Below, one piece after another: positions 21,245-29,231 of a stretch of DNA of 59,683 bases. The position numbers and the translations under genes are program-made. The stretch spans positions 1 through 59,683 of the forward strand of contig JAFUWF010000016.1 in the NCBI GenBank assembly GCA_017483575.1. Reading direction: 5' to 3'. The stretch comes from Bacteroidales bacterium. GTDB taxonomy: Bacteria; Bacteroidota; Bacteroidia; Bacteroidales; P3. How positions within the stretch are numbered: the first letter of the stretch is position 1; every line of letters starts with the position of its first letter. Under the pieces are notes generated by a model. It saw only the letters and a list, made by a program, of their open reading frames with translations, made no database searches and had not been told where the DNA came from.

Positions 21245-23668
21245 TTATAACGTCGGGGCGCTGACGCCTTCGCGGGCGCGGCTTTGGAGCTCCATCTTGC
21301 CGATGCGCCAGGTGGCGCCGACGGTGACGGCGCGGCGGCCCCAGGTGTAGCTGTAGCTGGACTGGTAGTAGGGGTTGAGGCCGACGGTGCCGCTCTGTGC
21401 GGTGGCGAGGATGTCCTGCCAGTTGAGGAAGAGCGAGAGGCGGCCTTCAAGCAGGTCGGCACTGGCTCCGAGGTCGAGTTGGAACGAGGGCTGGCTCTTG
21501 CTCAGCAGCGACAGGGCGGCGGTGGAGTAGCGGGCGTTGGCGTAGATTTGCAGCACGTCCCACAGCTTGCCTGTCACGTTGAGCCGTCCGCTGAAGGTGG
21601 TCAGGTGGCGCTCGTCCCATTCGCCGGGGCGGAACTCCATGTTGTAATAGTAGTCGTAGAGGTTGGCGTAGAGGCGGATGTTCATGAAGGGACGTGGGCG
21701 CCACGTGACGTTGGCTTCGGCGCCGAGGGTGCGGCTGTCGCCGATGTTGGCCCACTGGCTGAAGCTGACAATGCGTCCGTAGTAGGGATGATAGGCCACG
21801 TCGCTGAGTTGCTGTATCTCGTCGGTGTTGGCGCGGAGGTAGCCCGTCAGGCCCACGCTGCCCCACGGCTTGTACATCGTCCAGCCGCCTTCGAGGTTAT
21901 GGGTGTGGCTGAAGCGCAGGTCGGGGTCGCCGAGTTCGTAGTCTTCAACGCCGAGCCAGGTGTAGGTGCTCCACAGCTTGCTGCCGGGCGAAGAGAAGCG
22001 GCGGGTGTAACTGAAGGTGAAGGTGTGCCCGCTCTCGGTGGCATAGCTGGCGTGCAGCGAGGGGATGAAGTCCCAGAAAGCCTTGTCCACGTCGTATTGC
22101 GTGGTCTCGACTGGCAGGTCGGTGAAGGTGGCCTGCTTCCACTTGCGATAGGCGCGGACACCGCCCTTGAGGGTGAGCCGACTGATTTTCTGCTGCACGG
22201 CGACGTAAGCGTTCAGCTCGTTATCCACCATTCGGGTGCTGAAAGTGCGGTCGGCATCGCGCATCCACTGGCCGGTGGCATAGTCCATCGTGTCCCACTG
22301 CACTTGCTGCGAGTTGCGTCCCAGCACGACACTCGCGCCGGCTTCCATCGTGGTGCTTTGGCTAAAGGGTTTGGTGTAGTCGAGGTCGAAGTAATTCCAT
22401 TGGGAAGTGTAGTCCTCTGTGCGGCGGTTGCGCATGTCGTATTGCTGCATGACGGCGTATTGACGTTCCTTGTCGCGGACAGTGTGCTCGGGGTTGTAAT
22501 TGCTGCCGATATAGAGGCTGAGCTTCTGTCCGAGCGTGTCAAGCTTGCGGTCAAGGCCCACGCCACCGAAAAGGCCGAACCAGTTGTTGGGGACAAGAAT
22601 GTCGGAGCGGTAGGAATGGTCGCCAGGATTGTAGATGTATTCCTGCCGGGCGATGTCGTAGTGGCTCTCCACCTTCCCCCTACCGGGGGAGATGTTGAGC
22701 CACGCACTGAGGCTCGTCACGCTGTCTATCTGCCAGTCTACCGAAGCACCGGCGTTGCCGCTCACACGGCGTTGCAACTCCTTGCCCGAATAGGAATATT
22801 CCATCGAGAGGCGACCAATGGATTCGTAGAGTTGTTCGCTATTCTCTGTGCTGACATCGAAGTTGCTGAAGTTGCCGTTGGCCCAGGCGTTGACACTCAC
22901 CATCTCGTTGGCCCATACGTAGGAGAGCCACGGCTGCAGGTAGGGCGTGGTGCTGGCGTTGAGGCCGATGGAAAGCAGCGAGTTGAGCTGCACGCGTTGG
23001 TCGGTGATGATGTTGATGATGGCTCCCGTCGAGCCGTAGCGGGCCGATGGGTTGCTGAGCACCTCGACGCGCTTCACGCTGCTGGCGGGCAGGGTCTTGA
23101 TGTATTGCTTCAGGGCCTCGCCGCTGAGGTTCGAGGGGCGATCGTTGAGCCAGACGGTCACGTCGCTGCTGCCGCGCAGGGTGATGTTGCCCTCGGGGTC
23201 CACCTCCACGCCGGGGGCGTTCTGCAGGGCGTCGGCCATCGTGCCGGTCTGCACGCTGGGGTCGTCCTCCACGTGGTAGAACACCTTTTCGCCGTCGGCG
23301 CTGTAGAGCGGACGCTGGGCGGTGATATTTACGGCCTGCAGCGTGGTGCTGCTCTGGAAGATTTCAATCACGCCCAGCGCCGTGTCGGGTGGCACGTTGA
23401 GATGCTGCCAGTAGGTGTCGTAGCCCACCGCCGAGATGCGCAGAAGGTACTCGCCCTGCTCCACGGCGGCGAAGCGCATCGCGCCGCGGTCGTTGGTTGT
23501 GCTGCCGGCGACGAACGAGCTGTCCGTCGTCCGCAAGAGGACGCAATTGGTGAAAGCCATCGGCTCGCCGCTCTTCGCGTCGCGCAGCGTGCCGGTGACA
23601 GAGTGATTTTGTGCCTGAAGTCCGCCAATCATGGCGGCAAGGACTGTTGAGATGATGAGTTTCTTCAT
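21245..23668 (-). CDS. TonB-dependent-receptor-like outer membrane barrel protein
   Basis: An 807-residue protein. I start it at the ATG ending at 23668 (MKKLIISTVLAAMIGGLQAQ, signal peptide) and not at the upstream in-frame ATG at 23713. Residues ~20-95 form a carboxypeptidase-regulatory-like domain (VTGTLRDAKSGEPMAF, ISAVGYDTY). About 105-225 is a plug domain (MADALQNAPGVEVDPEGNITLRG, VEVLSNPSARYG). The rest is a barrel of the OMP_b-brl_3 type. There is no SusD partner and the substrate is unknown. A ~240-nt leader containing structured element A precedes the gene. Confidence 0.9.
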   Translation of the reverse strand: MKKLIISTVLAAMIGGLQAQNHSVTGTLRDAKSGEPMAFTNCVLLRTTDSSFVAGSTTNDRGAMRFAAVEQGEYLLRISAVGYDTYWQHLNVPPDTALGVIEIFQSSTTLQAVNITAQRPLYSADGEKVFYHVEDDPSVQTGTMADALQNAPGVEVDPEGNITLRGSSDVTVWLNDRPSNLSGEALKQYIKTLPASSVKRVEVLSNPSARYGSTGAIINIITDQRVQLNSLLSIGLNASTTPYLQPWLSYVWANEMVSVNAWANGNFSNFDVSTENSEQLYESIGRLSMEYSYSGKELQRRVSGNAGASVDWQIDSVTSLSAWLNISPGRGKVESHYDIARQEYIYNPGDHSYRSDILVPNNWFGLFGGVGLDRKLDTLGQKLSLYIGSNYNPEHTVRDKERQYAVMQQYDMRNRRTEDYTSQWNYFDLDYTKPFSQSTTMEAGASVVLGRNSQQVQWDTMDYATGQWMRDADRTFSTRMVDNELNAYVAVQQKISRLTLKGGVRAYRKWKQATFTDLPVETTQYDVDKAFWDFIPSLHASYATESGHTFTFSYTRRFSSPGSKLWSTYTWLGVEDYELGDPDLRFSHTHNLEGGWTMYKPWGSVGLTGYLRANTDEIQQLSDVAYHPYYGRIVSFSQWANIGDSRTLGAEANVTWRPRPFMNIRLYANLYDYYYNMEFRPGEWDERHLTTFSGRLNVTGKLWDVLQIYANARYSTAALSLLSKSQPSFQLDLGASADLLEGRLSLFLNWQDILATAQSGTVGLNPYYQSSYSYTWGRRAVTVGATWRIGKMELQSRAREGVSAPTL

Positions 23669-23740
23669 TTCCGAGTTTCTTTTGTTATTTAATAGTTGCT
23701 TAAACCTATCCAAATATTACAGAAGGGCACAAAAAAAGTC

Positions 23741-23944
23741 CGTGAACTTCTGTTCAGTGCTGAGGTTCTCGACTACCTATTCCTACGAACAAGAAAGCTC
23801 ACGGTTTCTCGTGAGCGTTTCCCCTTTCTTGTGTAGGAACAGTTGAAATTGTCGAGATTTCAGCACTACATTACGAAAAGCGAAAGCGCTTCAATATGTC
23901 TTTATGTCTATACTATTCTTTTTGTTTATGTCATATAATGTTTG
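23741..23944 (-). ncRNA. structured leader element, copy A (five-stem imperfect hairpin plus conserved 5' segment)
   Basis: Lies 73-276 bp upstream of the TonB-type gene start, in the 306-bp gap 23669-23974. Pairings (plus coordinates): 23756-23763/23860-23867, 23768-23773/23851-23856, 23780-23786/23833-23839, 23790-23797/23824-23831, and apical 23797-23803/23810-23816. On the minus strand a near-invariant ~65-nt segment (23879-23944) precedes it and includes an AAGCG-loop-CGCTT hairpin. GTTCACGG (23747-23740) then a T tract follow. Copy B at 27341-27545 keeps every stem, although the outer three have unrelated sequences. GTTCACGG can also pair with CCGTGAGC of the apical stem. I infer a cis-regulatory RNA or a mobile structured element; the family was not recognised. 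Confidence 0.75.
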
Positions 23945-23974
23945 TTTTCGTTTTATTACGTGTAATATGTGTGA

Positions 23975-24196
23975 CTATTTCACCATGCCGGTTTTCAGTT
24001 CATTGTCAAGGAAGGAATACACATACCTGGGACTCTGATAGTAAAGCCGTGTGCCAGCGTCCAACAGACGCTGGTAGGTGTCGGAATTGATTACCAGCGA
24101 CAGAGCCTGTTCTGCGGAAAGCGTTGGATTGTCTTCTGCCAGCAGGGTGGCCAGGTTCTTGACCATGTCGAGTGTCATTTGTTCCCGCTCGCTCAT
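23975..24196 (-). CDS. small protein of a DUF3791/DUF3990-type module
   Basis: A 73-residue acidic helical protein (MSEREQMTLDMVKNLATLLAED, LSAEQALSLVINSDTYQRL, YYQSPRYVYSFL). I recall such proteins as regular neighbours of DUF3990 and DUF3791 genes in gut Bacteroidales. Its ATG overlaps the TGA of the ancestral DUF3990 frame (24193-24196), so it was part of the same operon. It appears intact. Confidence 0.7.
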   Translation of the reverse strand: MSEREQMTLDMVKNLATLLAEDNPTLSAEQALSLVINSDTYQRLLDAGTRLYYQSPRYVYSFLDNELKTGMVK

Positions 24197-24419
24197 ATTC
24201 TTTTCAGTAGTTTAATTGCCCTTTCGGTGCCGAAGAAATACTGGATGGTATTACTATAGGGTCGCCAGTTTCAAGCTGGTCGACTTTTGTCTGGGCCATT
24301 TCCTTGGCTTGGTCAATGTCGACCGACATATAGAACCCCTGCCCGAAATCCTTGTTGGGCTTGGAGCGGGAGAGGTCGATATGGTCGAACTCGGCATTGG
24401 TGCCGTGGTAGAGAATCAT
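24193..24419 (-). pseudogene. DUF3990 (ADP-ribosyltransferase-like) gene with internal deletion and frameshift
   Basis: The first ~50 residues are a normal DUF3990 start: MILYHGTNAEFDHIDLSRSK, then DFGQGFYMS, then QAKEMA. The frame ends after 71 residues at TGA 24204-24206, with a tail (SSISSAPKGQLNY) that does not fit the family. In another frame the last 51 bp (24243-24193) read QYFFGTERAIKLLKRI and stop, which is what the DUF3990 C-terminus looks like. The middle of the gene, roughly 80 codons by comparison with the usual length, has been lost. The putative toxin should be inactive. Confidence 0.75.
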
Positions 24420-24640
24420 ACGAGCGCACCTCCTTTCCTGTGGCAGTATTCCCCAATGTCGTCAATCATCGACTGGAAGGACTGCGTGTGGACATAGCCG
24501 TAGTGCTTGTCGATAAAGTCAATGCCCTGATAGCGGCACAGGTAGTTGTATGCCTGCTTCAGCGTGAGTCCGAATCTCTGTCCGAACTCATTGGCAAAGA
24601 TGAGCATCCATTCCAGTTTGTCTTTGATGTCGTATTGCAT
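24416..24640 (-). CDS. DUF3791 protein (putative antitoxin partner)
   Basis: A 74-residue protein, full-length for DUF3791: WMLIFANEFGQRFGLTLKQA, YLCRYQGIDFIDKHYGYVHT, DDIGEYCHRKGG. It overlaps the DUF3990 remnant by 4 bp (ATGA) and is the first gene of a three-gene operon behind the promoter at 24681-24712. DUF3791/DUF3990 pairs are commonly thought to be toxin-antitoxin-like; that role is inferred. Confidence 0.8.
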   Translation of the reverse strand: MQYDIKDKLEWMLIFANEFGQRFGLTLKQAYNYLCRYQGIDFIDKHYGYVHTQSFQSMIDDIGEYCHRKGGALV

Positions 24641-24680
24641 AGAAGGATTTTTCTATTCTCAAACCACGTTATTTCGATTT

Positions 24681-24712
24681 GCAAAAATACACAATGTTTT
24701 TCATACGGCCAA
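24681..24712 (-). promoter_or_regulatory. promoter TTTG-N20-TATTTTTG
   Basis: On the minus strand TTTG (24712-24709) and TATTTTTG (24688-24681) are separated by 20 bp, 40 bp before the DUF3791 start. The surrounding catacggccaaat also occurs at the promoter of the SpoU gene (59453-59484). Confidence 0.75.
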
Positions 24713-24816
24713 ATTTATTTTGAAATGCGTCAGCGAAATACTCAACAAGAGACCGTCAAAGGGGACGCATGTTTGTCACACGGGAACACTTCTGTATTTG
24801 GTTAATACAATATAGT

Positions 24817-24918
24817 ATGCCAATGCATCTCATATACCTGCTCCTCCTGGCCGCCATCGCGGCGGTGTGCCTGTGGTTCGGCCGCGGACCGCGGGACAAG
24901 GACGAGGAGGATGAATAG
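24817..24918 (+). CDS. 33-residue single-span membrane microprotein (copy 2)
   Basis: ATG 24817, stop TAG 24916-24918. It reads MPMH, then IYLLLLAAIAAVCLWF, then GRGPRDKDEEDE. It is a near-duplicate of the protein at 20329-20427 but here stands alone, with no plus-strand gene directly upstream. A Bacteroidota-type promoter was not identified. Conservation of the reading frame with silent changes argues that it is expressed. It faces the end of the convergent BspA-like gene. Confidence 0.65.
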   Translation: MPMHLIYLLLLAAIAAVCLWFGRGPRDKDEEDE

Positions 24919-24949
24919 AAAAAAGCAGAGGCGCCGGTTGGCACCTCTG
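24919..24949 (-). terminator. intrinsic terminator of the BspA-like gene
   Basis: A hairpin pairs 24926-24935 with 24940-24949 (one C/A mismatch, loop GGTT). On the minus strand it is followed by six T residues (24924-24919). Confidence 0.75.
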
Positions 24950-24972
24950 GCTTGTGTAACACGGCATTGGTT

Positions 24973-27291
24973 TTATCTGATCACCACGACCTTGCGGGCG
25001 GAATGGTTGCCGATTTTCACAAGGTAAGTTCCCGAGGCGTTGACGTTGAAATGCATGGGTGAGTATTCATCCTGCTTGGTGGCTAGTATTCGGCCATTGA
25101 CATCGTAGAGCCACACGGCGTTACCTTGTGCACCGTCCACAACTATTTGTCCGTTGCTGGTGTATATCTTGGCGCTTATCGTCTCCACGTCATCCACACC
25201 GACATAGATGGTATCGTAAATGTAGAGGGTATCATGCACAAACACCGTGTCGTGCAACCACAGGGTGTCGGTGTTGTATACAACCGTGGTGTCGTATATT
25301 GTGTTGGTGACGGTGTCTAATACGGTATTTGTGACAGTATCATATATGGTATTTGTCACCGTGTCGGTCAGTGCGATGTAGGTGGTATCGTGGATGTTAA
25401 TGTAAGTCGTATCATGCACAGGTATATATTCCGTCAGCGCGAGTGTGTCAACCAATATGGTTGTATCATGTACCGCGTAGGGCACATCGATATATGTGGT
25501 GTCGTGGATGTTGATGTAGGTTGTGTCATGTATGGGCACATACTCTGTCAGTAAGAGTGTGTCGACCACTACGGTTGTGTCATATACAGCGTAGAGCACA
25601 TCAACATATGTCGTATCATGCACGTTGATATAGGTTGTATCATGTACGGGTACATTCTCTGTCAGCGTAAGCGTGTCAATCACAATGGTTGTGTCGTGTA
25701 CCGCATACGGCACGTCAATATATGTGGTGTCAAAAATGTTAATATAGGTGGTATCGTGCACGGGTACATATTCTGTCAGCGTAAGCGTGTCTACCAGTAT
25801 GGTTGTGTCGTGTACGGCATATGGCACATCGATGTATGTGGTGTCGTGGATGTTGATGTAGGTTGTGTCATGCACTGGTACATATTCTGTCAGCGTGAGT
25901 GTGTCATTTATTATAGTTGTATCACGAACGGCAAATACGGCTGTAAAAACCGTGTCAGAAACTACGGATATCTGACGAGGATTAATGGACAATCCATCTT
26001 GCCATCCTATAAACGACATCCCTCCTCTTGAAAGTGCATATATTAGTAAATTTTGGCCATCAGAATAGGTACCGGTTCCAACGGTACTACCTAGCGTGTC
26101 ATTATTTGATTGTACAGTAACATCCCATTGGCATACTTCCATGGGATAAATGTTGTTGGCCAAACTATCCCAATACATCGCGTGTCTATACGCATCAACT
26201 GACTGGCATGGTACAAATATGGATACCGGAAGTTCTGTCACCCAATCCAAAGTGCTATAGTATGTTTGTCCAGTTTGGACATCTCGCCAGTTTCCTTGAA
26301 ATGTTTCATTTGTTATTATTGGTGGCGTTCTTCTTTTTAGAATAATTCGTGAAAGTTTGCTATTGTCAATACCAGAAGAAATAGAACTGGATATGCCAAA
26401 GGCCCTGTTCCCAATATATTCAACAGATTCTGGTATCTCTATATACTGAAGATTATTACAACTGCTCAAAGCTCCGTCTCCTATATATTTCAATTTTTCC
26501 GGGAGTGTGATTGACGAGAATCGACATCCTTGGAATGTGTATTCTCGTATTGTGTCGAGGCTTGTTGGTAATGTTACATCTCCATAGATTCCGTAGTTAA
26601 ATGCACAATAGCCGATATAGTTTACAGAATCTGGAATGGTTAAATGTTTCTCATAATAATCCCACTCGAATGCATACCTTCCAATATAACGAAGTGTAGA
26701 TGGTAGGATAATAGTGTCAAGATAACTTACAGCATTATAGATGCTTCCCGTTGTCATATGAATAAATGAGTAGTTCTTGATTGTATCTACACCTTCTGGA
26801 ATAATTAAATTTGTCACCAGTTGATTGTTTATATATAGTCGGCGACCACAATAAAGAGGATTTGAGTAAATATTCTCAAAGTTAATATTACACCATTCGG
26901 CAAGAGAGCCTTTATAATAAACAGCGTTTAAGCTCACATTTCCATAACCGGTTGGGAATGCATCTCTTTCAATGGTCCTTATAGTTGTAGGTATCGTTAT
27001 TGTTGTAATTGTACTAGATGTGAATGTACCTTGTTTGATTCCAGAAACCTTAATCCAAGAACCATTCCATAAAACACTATCCGGGATAACTATGTTTCCA
27101 GATGGAGCAGTATATCCTGAATAATCACCAGTCCAACCATTTCCAGGATATGTTACGAATGCATCTCCATTAACTACCACATAGTATAATGTCTTAGACT
27201 GATATGTGTAGGAAAAATCGTAGGCCTTCACGTTTTGCGGAATAGCCAATGCCATCATCATAACAGCAAAAAAAGTAAATCTGTGTTTCAT
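24973..27291 (-). CDS. BspA-type leucine-rich-repeat surface protein with 38-residue repeats and T9SS type A domain
   Basis: A 772-residue protein with signal peptide (ending VKAYDF). Residues ~40-340 carry BspA/TpLRR (LRR_5) repeats such as LPEKLKYIGDGALSSC and IPESVEYIGNRAFG. A short domain (ISVVSDTVFTAVFAV) leads into five tandem 38-residue repeats (HDTTYINIHDTTYIDVPYA core) and shorter DTVTNTIY repeats. The last ~70 residues are a T9SS type A sorting domain (VWLYDVNGRILATK, GTYLVKIG, KVVVIR). A cell-surface adhesin is the usual role of such proteins. The gene is AT-richer than its neighbours and has leader element B upstream. Confidence 0.9.
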   Translation of the reverse strand: MKHRFTFFAVMMMALAIPQNVKAYDFSYTYQSKTLYYVVVNGDAFVTYPGNGWTGDYSGYTAPSGNIVIPDSVLWNGSWIKVSGIKQGTFTSSTITTITIPTTIRTIERDAFPTGYGNVSLNAVYYKGSLAEWCNINFENIYSNPLYCGRRLYINNQLVTNLIIPEGVDTIKNYSFIHMTTGSIYNAVSYLDTIILPSTLRYIGRYAFEWDYYEKHLTIPDSVNYIGYCAFNYGIYGDVTLPTSLDTIREYTFQGCRFSSITLPEKLKYIGDGALSSCNNLQYIEIPESVEYIGNRAFGISSSISSGIDNSKLSRIILKRRTPPIITNETFQGNWRDVQTGQTYYSTLDWVTELPVSIFVPCQSVDAYRHAMYWDSLANNIYPMEVCQWDVTVQSNNDTLGSTVGTGTYSDGQNLLIYALSRGGMSFIGWQDGLSINPRQISVVSDTVFTAVFAVRDTTIINDTLTLTEYVPVHDTTYINIHDTTYIDVPYAVHDTTILVDTLTLTEYVPVHDTTYINIFDTTYIDVPYAVHDTTIVIDTLTLTENVPVHDTTYINVHDTTYVDVLYAVYDTTVVVDTLLLTEYVPIHDTTYINIHDTTYIDVPYAVHDTTILVDTLALTEYIPVHDTTYINIHDTTYIALTDTVTNTIYDTVTNTVLDTVTNTIYDTTVVYNTDTLWLHDTVFVHDTLYIYDTIYVGVDDVETISAKIYTSNGQIVVDGAQGNAVWLYDVNGRILATKQDEYSPMHFNVNASGTYLVKIGNHSARKVVVIR
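25360..25929 (-). repeat. five tandem 114-bp coding repeats in the BspA-like gene
   Basis: Each 38-codon unit reads approximately VHDTTILVDTLTLTEYVPVH followed by DTTYINIHDTTYIDVPYA. Identical strings recur at exact multiples of 114 bp (gtcgtggatgttgatgta at 25501 and 25843, 342 bp apart). The units form a Thr/Asp-rich stalk before the sorting domain, and their number could vary by recombination. Confidence 0.9.
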
Positions 27292-27340
27292 ATAACCAAT
27301 AATTTATGTTGTTGTTCAAATGTAGCAGACAATATAAAAG

Positions 27341-27545
27341 CCGTGAACTTGTTTTGTTCGTAAGGAGGCTCTGGTAAAACCCAATCTGCAAACAAGAAAG
27401 CTCACGGTGCCGTGAGCGTTTCTCCTTTCTAGTGCAGATTGTTTTAGAAATTTACCAGATTTCCTTACGCAAAAGAAAAGCGAAAGCGCTTCAATATGTC
27501 GTTATGTCTATACTATTCTTTTTGTTTATGTCATATAATGTTTGA
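27341..27545 (-). ncRNA. structured leader element, copy B
   Basis: Lies 50-254 bp upstream of the BspA-like gene start. Pairings (plus coordinates): 27359-27366/27462-27469, 27371-27378/27451-27458, 27383-27389/27434-27440, 27395-27400/27425-27430 and apical 27400-27406/27411-27417. The outer three stems have no sequence in common with copy A yet are equally well paired. The apical part, GTTCACGG (27348-27341) and the segment 27479-27545 are nearly identical to copy A. The gap 27292-27574 contains nothing else that I can identify. Confidence 0.75.
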
Positions 27546-27574: not shown

Positions 27575-27765
27575 CTATAGTTTGTCTATTTCTTCTACTG
27601 TCAGTCCCGTGTATTTTAAAATCAGTTCCGTGTGTATCCCGTCAGCTTTCATCTCTTGTCGCTGACAAACGACTTGAGGGTATGTCCATCAATAAGCATC
27701 GTCACGTTGTTGGAGTATTCGAGGATATCCTCCAGCCGTCCTTTATCGCGTGCCCTCTCTCTCAT
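27575..27765 (-). pseudogene. HepT (DUF86) N-terminal fragment abutting the end of an Rpn-family gene
   Basis: From ATG at 27765 a 38-residue frame reads MRERARDKGRLEDILEYSNN and then GHTLKSFVSDKR and stops at 27649. This is the first helix pair of HepT-like RNases, which are normally about 110 residues and contain a later RxxxxHxY site. In another frame, overlapping at ATGA, a 25-residue frame (27652-27575) reads MKADGIHTELILKYTGLTVE then EIDKL, like the end of Rpn/PD-(D/E)XK proteins. The junction looks like a deletion between two neighbouring genes. The toxin should be non-functional. Confidence 0.7.
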
Positions 27766-28051
27766 ATATCAGAATTCTATCTTGTTCAGCCGTTTTGGCA
27801 GCGTATGGACGGAGCGTGCCGTCCACCACCAGGTCGACGTCGCGACCTAACAGTTCCTGAAGGTCCATCAACATACCGCCGTGGGTAAAAAGCGTGAACG
27901 GCTTTCCGGAATAGTCGGGGACAAAAAGGATGTCGACATCGCTCCTCGGCGTCTCCTCGCCGCGGGCGAAAGAGCCGAAAAGCCATGCTTTCAGGACGGG
28001 CTGCGTCTTGAAATAGTCGGCTATTATCTTCGTCATTGCTTGCGTGCTCAT
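27743..28051 (-). CDS. MntA-like nucleotidyltransferase (antitoxin of a decayed HepT pair)
   Basis: A 102-residue protein starting at the ATG ending at 28051 (MSTQAMTKIIADYFKTQ). The longer in-frame extension runs through the promoter and is rejected. The active-site signature is AWLFGSFARGEETPRSDVDILF, with a third acidic residue in GRDVDLVV. It overlaps the HepT remnant by 23 bp, the arrangement of intact MntA-HepT operons. The antitoxin survives although the toxin is truncated. Confidence 0.85.
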   Translation of the reverse strand: MSTQAMTKIIADYFKTQPVLKAWLFGSFARGEETPRSDVDILFVPDYSGKPFTLFTHGGMLMDLQELLGRDVDLVVDGTLRPYAAKTAEQDRILIYEREGTR

Positions 28052-28079
28052 AAGCTCGTTGTGCGTTGTTTTCGATTTG

Positions 28080-28110
28080 CAAAAGTACACATTCTTTTTG
28101 AATCTGCAAA
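28080..28110 (-). promoter_or_regulatory. promoter TTTG-N19-TACTTTTG
   Basis: Minus-strand TTTG (28110-28107) and TACTTTTG (28087-28080) lie 28 bp before the MntA-like start, with 19 bp between the boxes. Confidence 0.7.
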
Positions 28111-28179
28111 AAATATTTTCGAACGCAACGTTTTGCTGCGGCCTCGAGGTATTATGACGCACGTTGGAAAGGACATGGA

Positions 28180-28439: not shown

Positions 28440-29231
28440 ATGGGCAAGGAGTATCAGAATAATTGGAATAATCTGAATTATCAGAGTGGTCGGAGTGATC
28501 TGAATAATCTGAGTAATCAGAATGGTCAAAGTAATCAGAATACTCGGAGTATTCAGAAAAATCAGGGCAATCAGAGTCAGCAGGGCGGTATGCCGGCGAC
28601 TACTTTTCTGCCTCAGCATGGGCACTACCGGCAACTAAGGGTGTATCAGGTGACGGAGGCTCTCTATGACTTGACCTATATGTTCTGCAAGCGATTCCTG
28701 GGACATGGCGACCGGACGGTGGACCAGATGGTGCAGGCTGCACGCAGCGGGAAGCAGAATATCGCCGAGGGCAATCAGGCCGCGGCGACTTCCTCGGAGA
28801 CTGAAATCAAGCTGACCAATGTGGCCAAAGCGAGCCTGGAGGAGTTGCTGGTGGATTATGAAGACTATCTGCGCACACGCGGACTGCAGCAGTGGGACGG
28901 GCATCATCCCCGTTTCGAGGCCATGCGGACATACGCCCGCAGCGAGGAATTCTTTGCCGACTATGCCCAGCGGTCGGCTGCTATGAATGATGAGGAGCTG
29001 GCCAATCTGTGTATCACCCTGTGCCACCAGGCCATCTACATGCTGAAAAGGCTCATCGACCACCAGCAGGAACGGTTCACCACAGAAGGTGGCATCAGGG
29101 AACGGATGACCGCCACACGCCTGCAATACCGCAAGGCGCAGCAGACGGAGATAGAGCGTCTGCAAGAGGAGAATGCGGCATTGAAGGATAGGATAAAGGA
29201 ATTGGAGGAGAGAATAGATAGAAAAAAATAA
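28440..29231 (+). CDS. four-helix-bundle (S23/PF05635-like) protein with Asn/Gln-rich head and coiled-coil tail
   Basis: 263 residues in three parts. Residues 1-48 are low complexity, rich in Asn, Gln and Ser (NNWNNLNYQSG, NLSNQNGQSNQN), and are encoded by a degenerate cagaataat-type repeat. Residues ~55-215 resemble the four-helix-bundle family first found in 23S rRNA intervening sequences (YDLTYMFCKRFLGHGDRTVDQ, AARSGKQNIAEGN, ASLEELLVDYEDYL). Residues ~235-263 are a heptad coiled coil (IERLQEENAALKDRIKELEE). It ends 11 bp before the NfnAB-like gene. Function unknown; the head looks prion-like. Confidence 0.8.
   Translation: MGKEYQNNWNNLNYQSGRSDLNNLSNQNGQSNQNTRSIQKNQGNQSQQGGMPATTFLPQHGHYRQLRVYQVTEALYDLTYMFCKRFLGHGDRTVDQMVQAARSGKQNIAEGNQAAATSSETEIKLTNVAKASLEELLVDYEDYLRTRGLQQWDGHHPRFEAMRTYARSEEFFADYAQRSAAMNDEELANLCITLCHQAIYMLKRLIDHQQERFTTEGGIRERMTATRLQYRKAQQTEIERLQEENAALKDRIKELEERIDRKK

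Follow-up and report, generated by a model that had tools for sequence, protein, structure and literature searches.

Two structured elements on the minus strand of a Bacteroidales contig, each standing in front of a gene for a putative surface protein, raise the question of what such a duplicated leader does and whether it is peculiar to this locus. The contig (JAFUWF010000016.1, GenBank assembly GCA_017483575.1) was analyzed over 59,683 nt, the whole of which we call the window, and the elements are designated A and B. A preliminary description had read them either as a cis-regulatory RNA controlling surface proteins or as a mobile structured unit. We confirmed that A and B are members of a 5' leader RNA family found across the Bacteroidota, and we conclude that they probably act as two-state transcription attenuators.

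The structured core of element A, as matched by a covariance model, spans 23730..23889 (160 nt, including the U-run), and that of element B spans 27331..27489 (159 nt). The positions and strand first noted were borne out, but the limits moved, since both elements extend as far as the U-run, ending at 23730 in A and at 27331 in B. Each core is preceded by an AT-rich leader, at 23890..23944 in A and 27490..27544 in B on the same strand; the two leaders are near-identical, and that of A has similar copies in other parts of the genome. The elements are direct repeats spaced by 3600-3603 bp, with a 70-nt 5' part that is 99% identical. Folding of 226-nt stretches gave -67.7 kcal/mol for A (z -5.8) and -65.8 kcal/mol for B (z -6.1), and none of 200 dinucleotide shuffles folded as well in either case.

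Relatives were collected stepwise, and the family recovered in this way supplied the alignments on which the structural analysis rests. Searches with blastn found relatives in 27 of 61 genomes, including 25 of the 37 from the same genus, and 67 of the 68 places were used (a 29-nt match in genome G045 was excluded). A regular-expression core was absent from eight of the 67; the model regained two of these (L063 and L065), and the other six were leader-only or diverged. Covariance models were built from the blastn relatives, and genomes with the family were counted at E up to 1e-4. Early alignments held 52 of 59 sequences (A4) and 21 sequences (A5). The later sets were A6, with 61 sequences (60 from the genus and L073 from another family), A7, with 40 order-level loci, and A9, with 20 loci from other orders, the last two chosen among the best listed matches and so non-random. 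A8 is A6 minus five near-duplicate loci. One row, L054, is an artefact cut by a contig end.

The covariance search suggested in the preliminary description recovered the family in 119 of 393 Bacteroidales genomes (76 of 206 genera). In the genus of the window 107 of 120 genomes were positive, and across the Bacteroidota 56 of 395 genomes and 27 of 171 genera, with the window's own genome and members of its order counted. The table for the genus sums to at least 383 copies; at most 24 candidates per genome were scored in the genus and seven in the order and phylum searches, so copy numbers are lower bounds, and the E-values are rough. The genome that carries the window (1.96 Mb, 78% complete) yields nine matches at E up to 1, including four strong ones. 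Matches to the core pattern came from 53 stretches whose titles name Bacteroidales or Bacteroidetes; many derive from rumen or gut samples, and one is Candidatus Colimorpha merdihippi.

In the first of two folds, five stacked stems (P1 to P5) form a rod. Across 96 order-level sequences 93.0% of the cells in the rod are paired, compared with 34.5-44.7% in slid controls, which retain relatedness, though fitting to the structure of the model makes the alignments lean towards the rod. Two-sided changes occur in 39 of 42 pairs, and 938 two-sided cells were counted against 251 in shuffles, a test that is inflated by relatedness, as pair counts in general carry tree-related inflation. Set A6 gave similar values (94.0% paired against 36.9-45.7% slid; two-sided changes in 28 of 42 pairs). 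The count of compensatory changes proposed at the outset thus came out in favor of the stems, and the early observation that the outer stems of A and B differ in their letters while keeping their pairing extends to all 61 and 96 relatives. This pairing is therefore not a coincidence of two copies. G.U cells outnumber A.C cells by 221 to 40, which argues that the conserved thing is an RNA of this strand.

The second fold consists of two hairpins. The tail GTTCACGG had been seen to pair with the apical strand CCGTGAGC in both copies, and this pairing is conserved throughout the family. The preliminary description was also right to propose two exclusive folds by way of this tail; its stacked stems are one state of two, and it had missed the pairing of the 5' strand with the 5' side of the apical hairpin. 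Four segments take part. In element A, segment 1 is the 5' strand (23873..23889), which pairs in the two-hairpin state with segment 2 (23815..23831), made up of the 5' strand of P4, a purine bulge and the base of P5. Segment 3 (23790..23804) is the 3' strand of P5 and P4, CCGTGAGCTTTCTTG, and segment 4 (23740..23749) is the tail AAGTTCACGG, the 3' arm of a terminator-like hairpin followed by a run of seven U at 23731..23737. The corresponding segments of element B lie at 27473..27489, 27416..27432, 27393..27407 and 27341..27350, with a run of four U next to the last; all are on the minus strand.

Neither the 1:2 nor the 3:4 pairing is part of the covariance models, so the support that we find for them also backs the covariance hits. 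The tail AAGTTCACGG and the apical hairpin's 3' strand pair in 91.8% of cells, compared with 19.2-41.0% when slid, and a further pair of the second fold outside P5 (columns 107-190) is UA in 19, AU in 16 and unpaired in 26 of 61 sequences. Tails pair better with their own strand (mean -15.29) than do the tails of other copies (-12.30; none of 10000 permutations), in a test in which the script misread the U-run of L048. By eye, the tails of L165, L167 and L168 match the same strand in another register. We also computed duplexes for 114 of 116 sequences, dropping L054 and one A9 row without a U-run. Segments 1 and 2 gave -16.64 kcal/mol with their own partner against -12.64 kcal/mol with permuted partners, and segments 3 and 4 gave -16.05 against -12.05 kcal/mol; no permutation in 5000 did as well in either case, nor within any single set (55 sequences of A6, 40 of A7 and 19 of A9). 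The control combinations 1:3 and 1:4 showed no own-partner preference over all 114.

Each half of the element was also folded by itself, split at the apical loop (115 of 116 sequences, L054 dropped). The 3' half has a mean z of -4.12 against dinucleotide shuffles, with 112 of 115 sequences below -2. Within the 5' half, a small inner hairpin GAAAU/AUUUC is paired in 88.9% of cells, but a slide by one column scores 92.7% and this count by itself is therefore weak; a permissive scan run with no control found a stem of at least four pairs there in 118 of 121. The corresponding small hairpin of the 3' half, sought with a simple GG./.CC pattern in the same number of sequences, is closed by U-A in 50, C-G in seven and other letters in 58, with the pattern absent from six. 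The two strands of P2 are complementary and are located in the inner loops of the two halves, which suggests, as far as sequence goes, that the loops could make contact. In prefix folding of A and B, the 5' strand, GCGYUUUCGCUUUUC, takes as its partner the purine-rich bulge together with the base of the apical stem (GAAAGGRGAAACGC) while the 3' strands are yet to be made, and the 1:2 pairing is displaced at about 96-108 nt. Finally, a U-run of at least four follows P1 in 93 of 96 sequences. The family thus has the layout of an attenuator with an intrinsic terminator, namely two exclusive conserved helices, one of them directly before a U-run.

By comparison of sequences, both folds are conserved and covary, and they come with a U-run and with a set position and orientation before genes; from this we infer termination at the second hairpin, a default state and a refolding that begins at the loops. 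In the ON state the 5' half would pair with the 3' half through P1, P2, P3, P4 and P5 to give the rod, the tail would be free, no terminator would form before the U-run and the gene would be transcribed. In the OFF state segment 1 would pair with segment 2 around the GAAAU/AUUUC hairpin, while segments 3 and 4 would form an intrinsic terminator immediately ahead of the U-run. As the RNA is made, the 5' hairpin could form first, and the apical hairpin with P4, P3, P2 and P1 could then convert it into the rod, a step that the complementary inner loops carrying the P2 strands could start. The tail is made last, and if the 3' strand were still free at that time the terminator-like hairpin would close before the U-run. 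Candidate triggers are time or the speed of RNA polymerase, a protein, a ligand, or translation of a minimal upstream open reading frame (uORF). The part of the preliminary description that proposed a cis-regulatory attenuator or switch is thus supported by position, by the U-run and by the two covarying folds.

Several results weigh against an attenuator of this kind. The rod is predicted to be favored by about 12 kcal/mol on average, so the terminator would need kinetic trapping or a factor. P5 is 99.4% paired, yet three of its seven pairs vary on one side only across the 96 sequences. When most of P5 was cut off, segments 2 and 3 differed little between own and permuted partners (-7.22 against -6.98; 59 of 5000 permutations overall and 2463 of 5000 in the genus set), so P4 and P5 rest on the 96-sequence pair counts. 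The 1:3 control is not wholly flat within A9 (six of 5000), and the folding signal of the 5' half alone is modest (mean z -2.06; 57 of 115 sequences below -2). L068 has lost most of its tail. Loci from other orders are less regular in their U-run (at least four U in 16 of 20), and in 13 of 19 the distance to the first open reading frame (ORF) found exceeds 200 nt, so the RNA there might be a separate small RNA.

Because the rod is the more stable fold, time would favor the ON state, and the element would sense transcription speed or whatever holds the 5' half. In its boldest form this would be a ligand-free timing switch used across the phylum, in which two mirrored hairpins, the second of them a terminator, refold by contact of their complementary inner loops into an antiterminating rod if transcription is slow enough. 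We consider that proposal speculative and rather unlikely; if it were true, phage-facing genes of the accessory genome, such as those for surface proteins and restriction systems, would share control by transcription speed. Another version of the attenuator has a specific trigger. The letters of the internal loops that separate P1 from P2 (5' side GAAA, 3' side ACCUC) are strongly conserved, and these loops might bind a metabolite or regulator that stabilizes one of the two covarying states. The presence of one leader before many unlike genes would suit a global signal or regulator of this sort. Part of the conservation is already accounted for by the second fold, with its four segments and inner hairpins, however, and no pathway common to the downstream genes points to a ligand. 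We therefore hold a riboswitch or protein-sensing leader to be possible but doubtful.

The leader of each element in the window contains a minimal uORF, ATG-ACA-TAA (23926..23934 in A and, read directly at the same offset, 27526..27534 in B, both minus). Minimal ORFs, defined as ATG, at most one codon and a stop, occur in 29 of 46 non-redundant A6 leaders against 11.9 in shuffles (none of 500 shuffles had as many) and in 14 of 37 A7 leaders against 8.4 (13 of 500). Start and stop are constant while the middle codon varies, and only 25 of 217 upstream regions of other genes have such an ORF. The occupancy of a ribosome translating it could in principle decide the fold. The excess is not significant in A9 (seven of 20 against 4.6; 80 of 500), however, most of these ORFs are 28-48 nt upstream of segment 1, which we take to be beyond the ribosome footprint, and they may reflect avoidance of longer ORFs, for ATGs are fewer than in shuffles in all three sets. 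A scan of the upstream 85 nt found no control-codon leader peptide over segment 1, longer ORFs that enter segment 1 not having been checked singly. Coupling to a ribosome thus seems to us an unlikely basis for the switch.

The topology of exclusive helices is that of trp attenuation, in which four segments pair as 1:2 and 3:4 against 2:3, and in both cases a terminator-like helix stands before a U-run. The present family differs from trp-type attenuators in lacking a codon-rich peptide over segment 1, having instead an ATG-X-stop further upstream in part of its copies; in its additional helices P1 to P3, which join the halves into a rod; and in preceding surface or restriction genes rather than biosynthetic ones.

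A promoter-like box, TAnnTTTG, lies 25-160 nt upstream of the element in 50 of 61 A6 sequences (49 of 60 when the artefact row L054 is left out), 35 of 40 in A7 and 16 of 20 in A9, against shuffle expectations of 4.8, 4.8 and 3.5, respectively. Unlike most relatives, A and B have no such box within this range. The boxes of A7 and A9, together with the distant first ORFs in other orders, would suit a small RNA that acts in trans, has a promoter and terminator of its own and only happens to lie upstream of genes. The placement of the elements speaks against this. Of 106 copies scored, 102 share the strand of the nearest downstream ORF (at least 120 codons, start within 600 nt; 48/49, 37/39 and 17/18 by set), with 12 further copies having no such ORF and three being too near a contig end. 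In the order of the window the distance to the first ATG is short, with a median of 49 nt and values under 100 nt in 75 of 95 copies (our rule gave an ORF for 95 of 101 elements in A6 and A7). The four-segment layout also has no obvious use in a free RNA, and we regard a trans-acting small RNA as quite improbable.

The genes behind the elements in the window encode an 807-residue outer-membrane beta-barrel protein of TonB type (OMP_b-brl_3; 21245..23668, minus) for A and a 772-residue BspA-type leucine-rich-repeat protein (LRR_5; 24973..27291, minus) for B, in agreement with the preliminary assignments. Surface proteins prove to be one class of downstream gene but not the whole; a second large class consists of restriction-modification and helicase genes. 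Among 62 non-redundant downstream proteins, six are BspA-type leucine-rich-repeat proteins, six have a T9SS sorting tail, five match ResIII and four match N-6 DNA methylase. Starts resembling signal peptides, scored with a crude rule, were found in 43 of 95 downstream ORFs and in 109 of 407 other ORFs of the same loci. Eight of ten long candidates picked by eye (L155, L157, L152, L161, L047, L051, L075 and L079) have hits to restriction or helicase models of PADLOC at E <1e-10, while L080 gave a weak match and L045 none; these models match ordinary helicases and methylases too, so defense is only a likely label.

Other features were noted around these genes. In loci L190, L195, L196, L197 and L201, which come from other orders, an ORF of about 1000 codons that by eye resembles SusC/TonB receptors begins 217-271 nt after the element, and the ORFs behind L199 and L202 resemble, again by eye, ECF sigma and FecR proteins. 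The BspA-type gene behind B contains repeats spaced by 114 bp (25379-25948), and a repeat in 9-bp steps (28444-28577) lies at the start of a plus-strand ORF at 28440-29231.

We compared the elements with known RNA families. Scanning of the whole window against Rfam 15 gave no family at gathering score, and in scans of 15 + 17 divergent loci only tRNA, DUF805b and Flavo-1 were matched, none of them at an element. Element A had no match at E up to 5; element B had PyrG_leader (E 3.8), ctRNA_p42d (E 0.72) and mir-205 (E 4.5), all far below their gathering scores. A known Rfam family was thus rejected, the gathering score being reached at none of the elements scanned, and at that score the statement that this is not a known Rfam family holds. 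The Flavo-1 hit (RF01705, a Bacteroidota motif) is at L193 6759-6865, with about 3.5 kb between it and the element there. The Bacteroid-trp RNA (RF01692), named in PMC6414381 and PMC2864571, is an attenuator-like Bacteroidota leader. Neither A nor B matches it at gathering score or at E up to 5, and no trp genes lie behind the loci inspected. The epsC/EAR (RF01735) and JUMPstart (RF01707) elements are leaders of surface-related operons that let transcription through. They were unmatched in the Rfam scans, and the terminator-like hairpin is part of the A/B-type element itself. Both are tabulated as motifs in PMC2864571 and are listed from other phyla.

The FopS and GibS small RNAs of Bacteroides, which are in Rfam, have a single-stranded 5' stretch and a terminator hairpin and act in trans on susC mRNAs, according to PMC11697453. 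Like the A/B family they are, on that account, multicopy Bacteroidales RNAs linked to surface genes; the structure described there differs from a cis leader that forms a rod or two hairpins, the comparison of sequences being that of the Rfam scans. Two studies report their candidates in supplements, 3161 of them in PMC8040213 and 64 structured 5' regions in PMC9723704. The rod/two-hairpin leader appears new, being in neither Rfam 15 nor the main texts compared, and may sit unnamed among the 3161 supplementary candidates of PMC8040213. What appears new is the rod/two-hairpin architecture and its use with many genes across the phylum; the attenuator topology is known.

The histories of elements and genes bear on the preliminary alternative of a mobile structured unit. 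Among 20 gene pairs with at least 60% protein identity, the partner's element was among the closest seven in 17, and the three exceptions all involve A; elements thus mostly follow their gene, locus A excepted. L041, L038 and L042 have downstream proteins 82-87% identical to that of A, and their elements share 96-98% identity among themselves, but the A element has only 69-71% identity with these elements. Its nearest match (86%) is L034, an element in front of an unrelated gene. This pattern suggests an exchange of the element at locus A. A collinear alignment at 75-77% runs from just before the A element into its gene, however, so there is no visible breakpoint and fast divergence in place is possible. 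At the C15 locus exchange is likely as well, and the case is clearer. Its upstream gene and leader match loci of genome G012 (84% over 336 nt and 89% over 316 nt) up to the leader, where homology stops, and its leader and element match another G012 locus at 74% over 293 nt.

Leader blocks that are 84-98% identical over 40-71 nt occur between unlike loci of two genomes, some with different hairpins or none behind them. We conclude that the elements occupy variable loci, at some of which they were probably exchanged. In L001 (337-502), L058 (232-417) and L002 (1679-1762, minus) the same leader block is followed by other long hairpins, which score against the model at E 0.00054, 0.00018 and 0.29, respectively; the downstream strand of L058 and L002 matches the apical 3' strand by eye. 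In L056 (3934-3981) the leader block stands alone and is not followed by a strong hairpin (260 nt fold at -18.6 kcal/mol).

Toxin-antitoxin-like ORFs and ORFs of the KilA-N and ORF6N families lie upstream of several copies. In the window, the ORFs upstream of A (23978..24640, minus) include matches to DUF3791 (24419-24640) and, partially, DUF3990 (24207-24419), and a 73-residue ORF with no Pfam match (23978-24196, minus). Upstream of B is an ORF for a 102-residue MNT-like nucleotidyltransferase (27746..28051, minus). DUF3791, DUF3990 and the nucleotidyltransferase we take to be toxin-antitoxin-like families. HEPN, PIN, KilA-N, ORF6N and DUF1016 proteins lie upstream of other copies; in all, ten chosen upstream proteins were compared, of which two had no match. 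A 77% direct repeat (24672-24728 and 28070-28126) stands before the ORFs upstream of A and B and carries, by eye, a TAnnTTTG-like sequence on the minus strand.

These neighbors, the shared leader blocks and the conflicting histories at A would suit hairpins that work at the level of DNA, in a mobile element or a recombination site. The excess of G.U over A.C points to an RNA of one strand instead, and the element lies on the same strand as its gene, with a U-run at one end. We found neither an enzyme nor a constant boundary, elements mostly follow their gene, and none of the two patterns searched matched viral contigs. A purely mobile DNA element was set aside on the G.U/A.C asymmetry and the same-strand orientation, and we rate it as very improbable; what stands of the mobile unit first proposed is the likely exchange at A and C15. 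Searches of plasmids with element B and L164 gave no match, and L190 matched once, before a hypothetical gene on a plasmid of Rhizosphaericola mali (Chitinophagales). Matches by blastn occur in two unannotated records titled "Bacteriophage sp.", one of them MT835758. The other, the unverified human faecal sequence MT838511.1, has a full element (L218, 1863-2058; model E 3.8e-13) and may be host DNA. A phage origin was considered and rejected, the search of viral contigs having covered the two patterns.

If the attenuator reading is right, Rfam lacks a regulatory RNA family that most genomes of one rumen and gut genus carry and that has a scattered distribution in the phylum. It would tie surface display and restriction-modification, both of them layers that phages meet, to a single RNA decision. 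The natural compensatory variants of the family would then be a ready set for testing how a nascent RNA chooses its fold.

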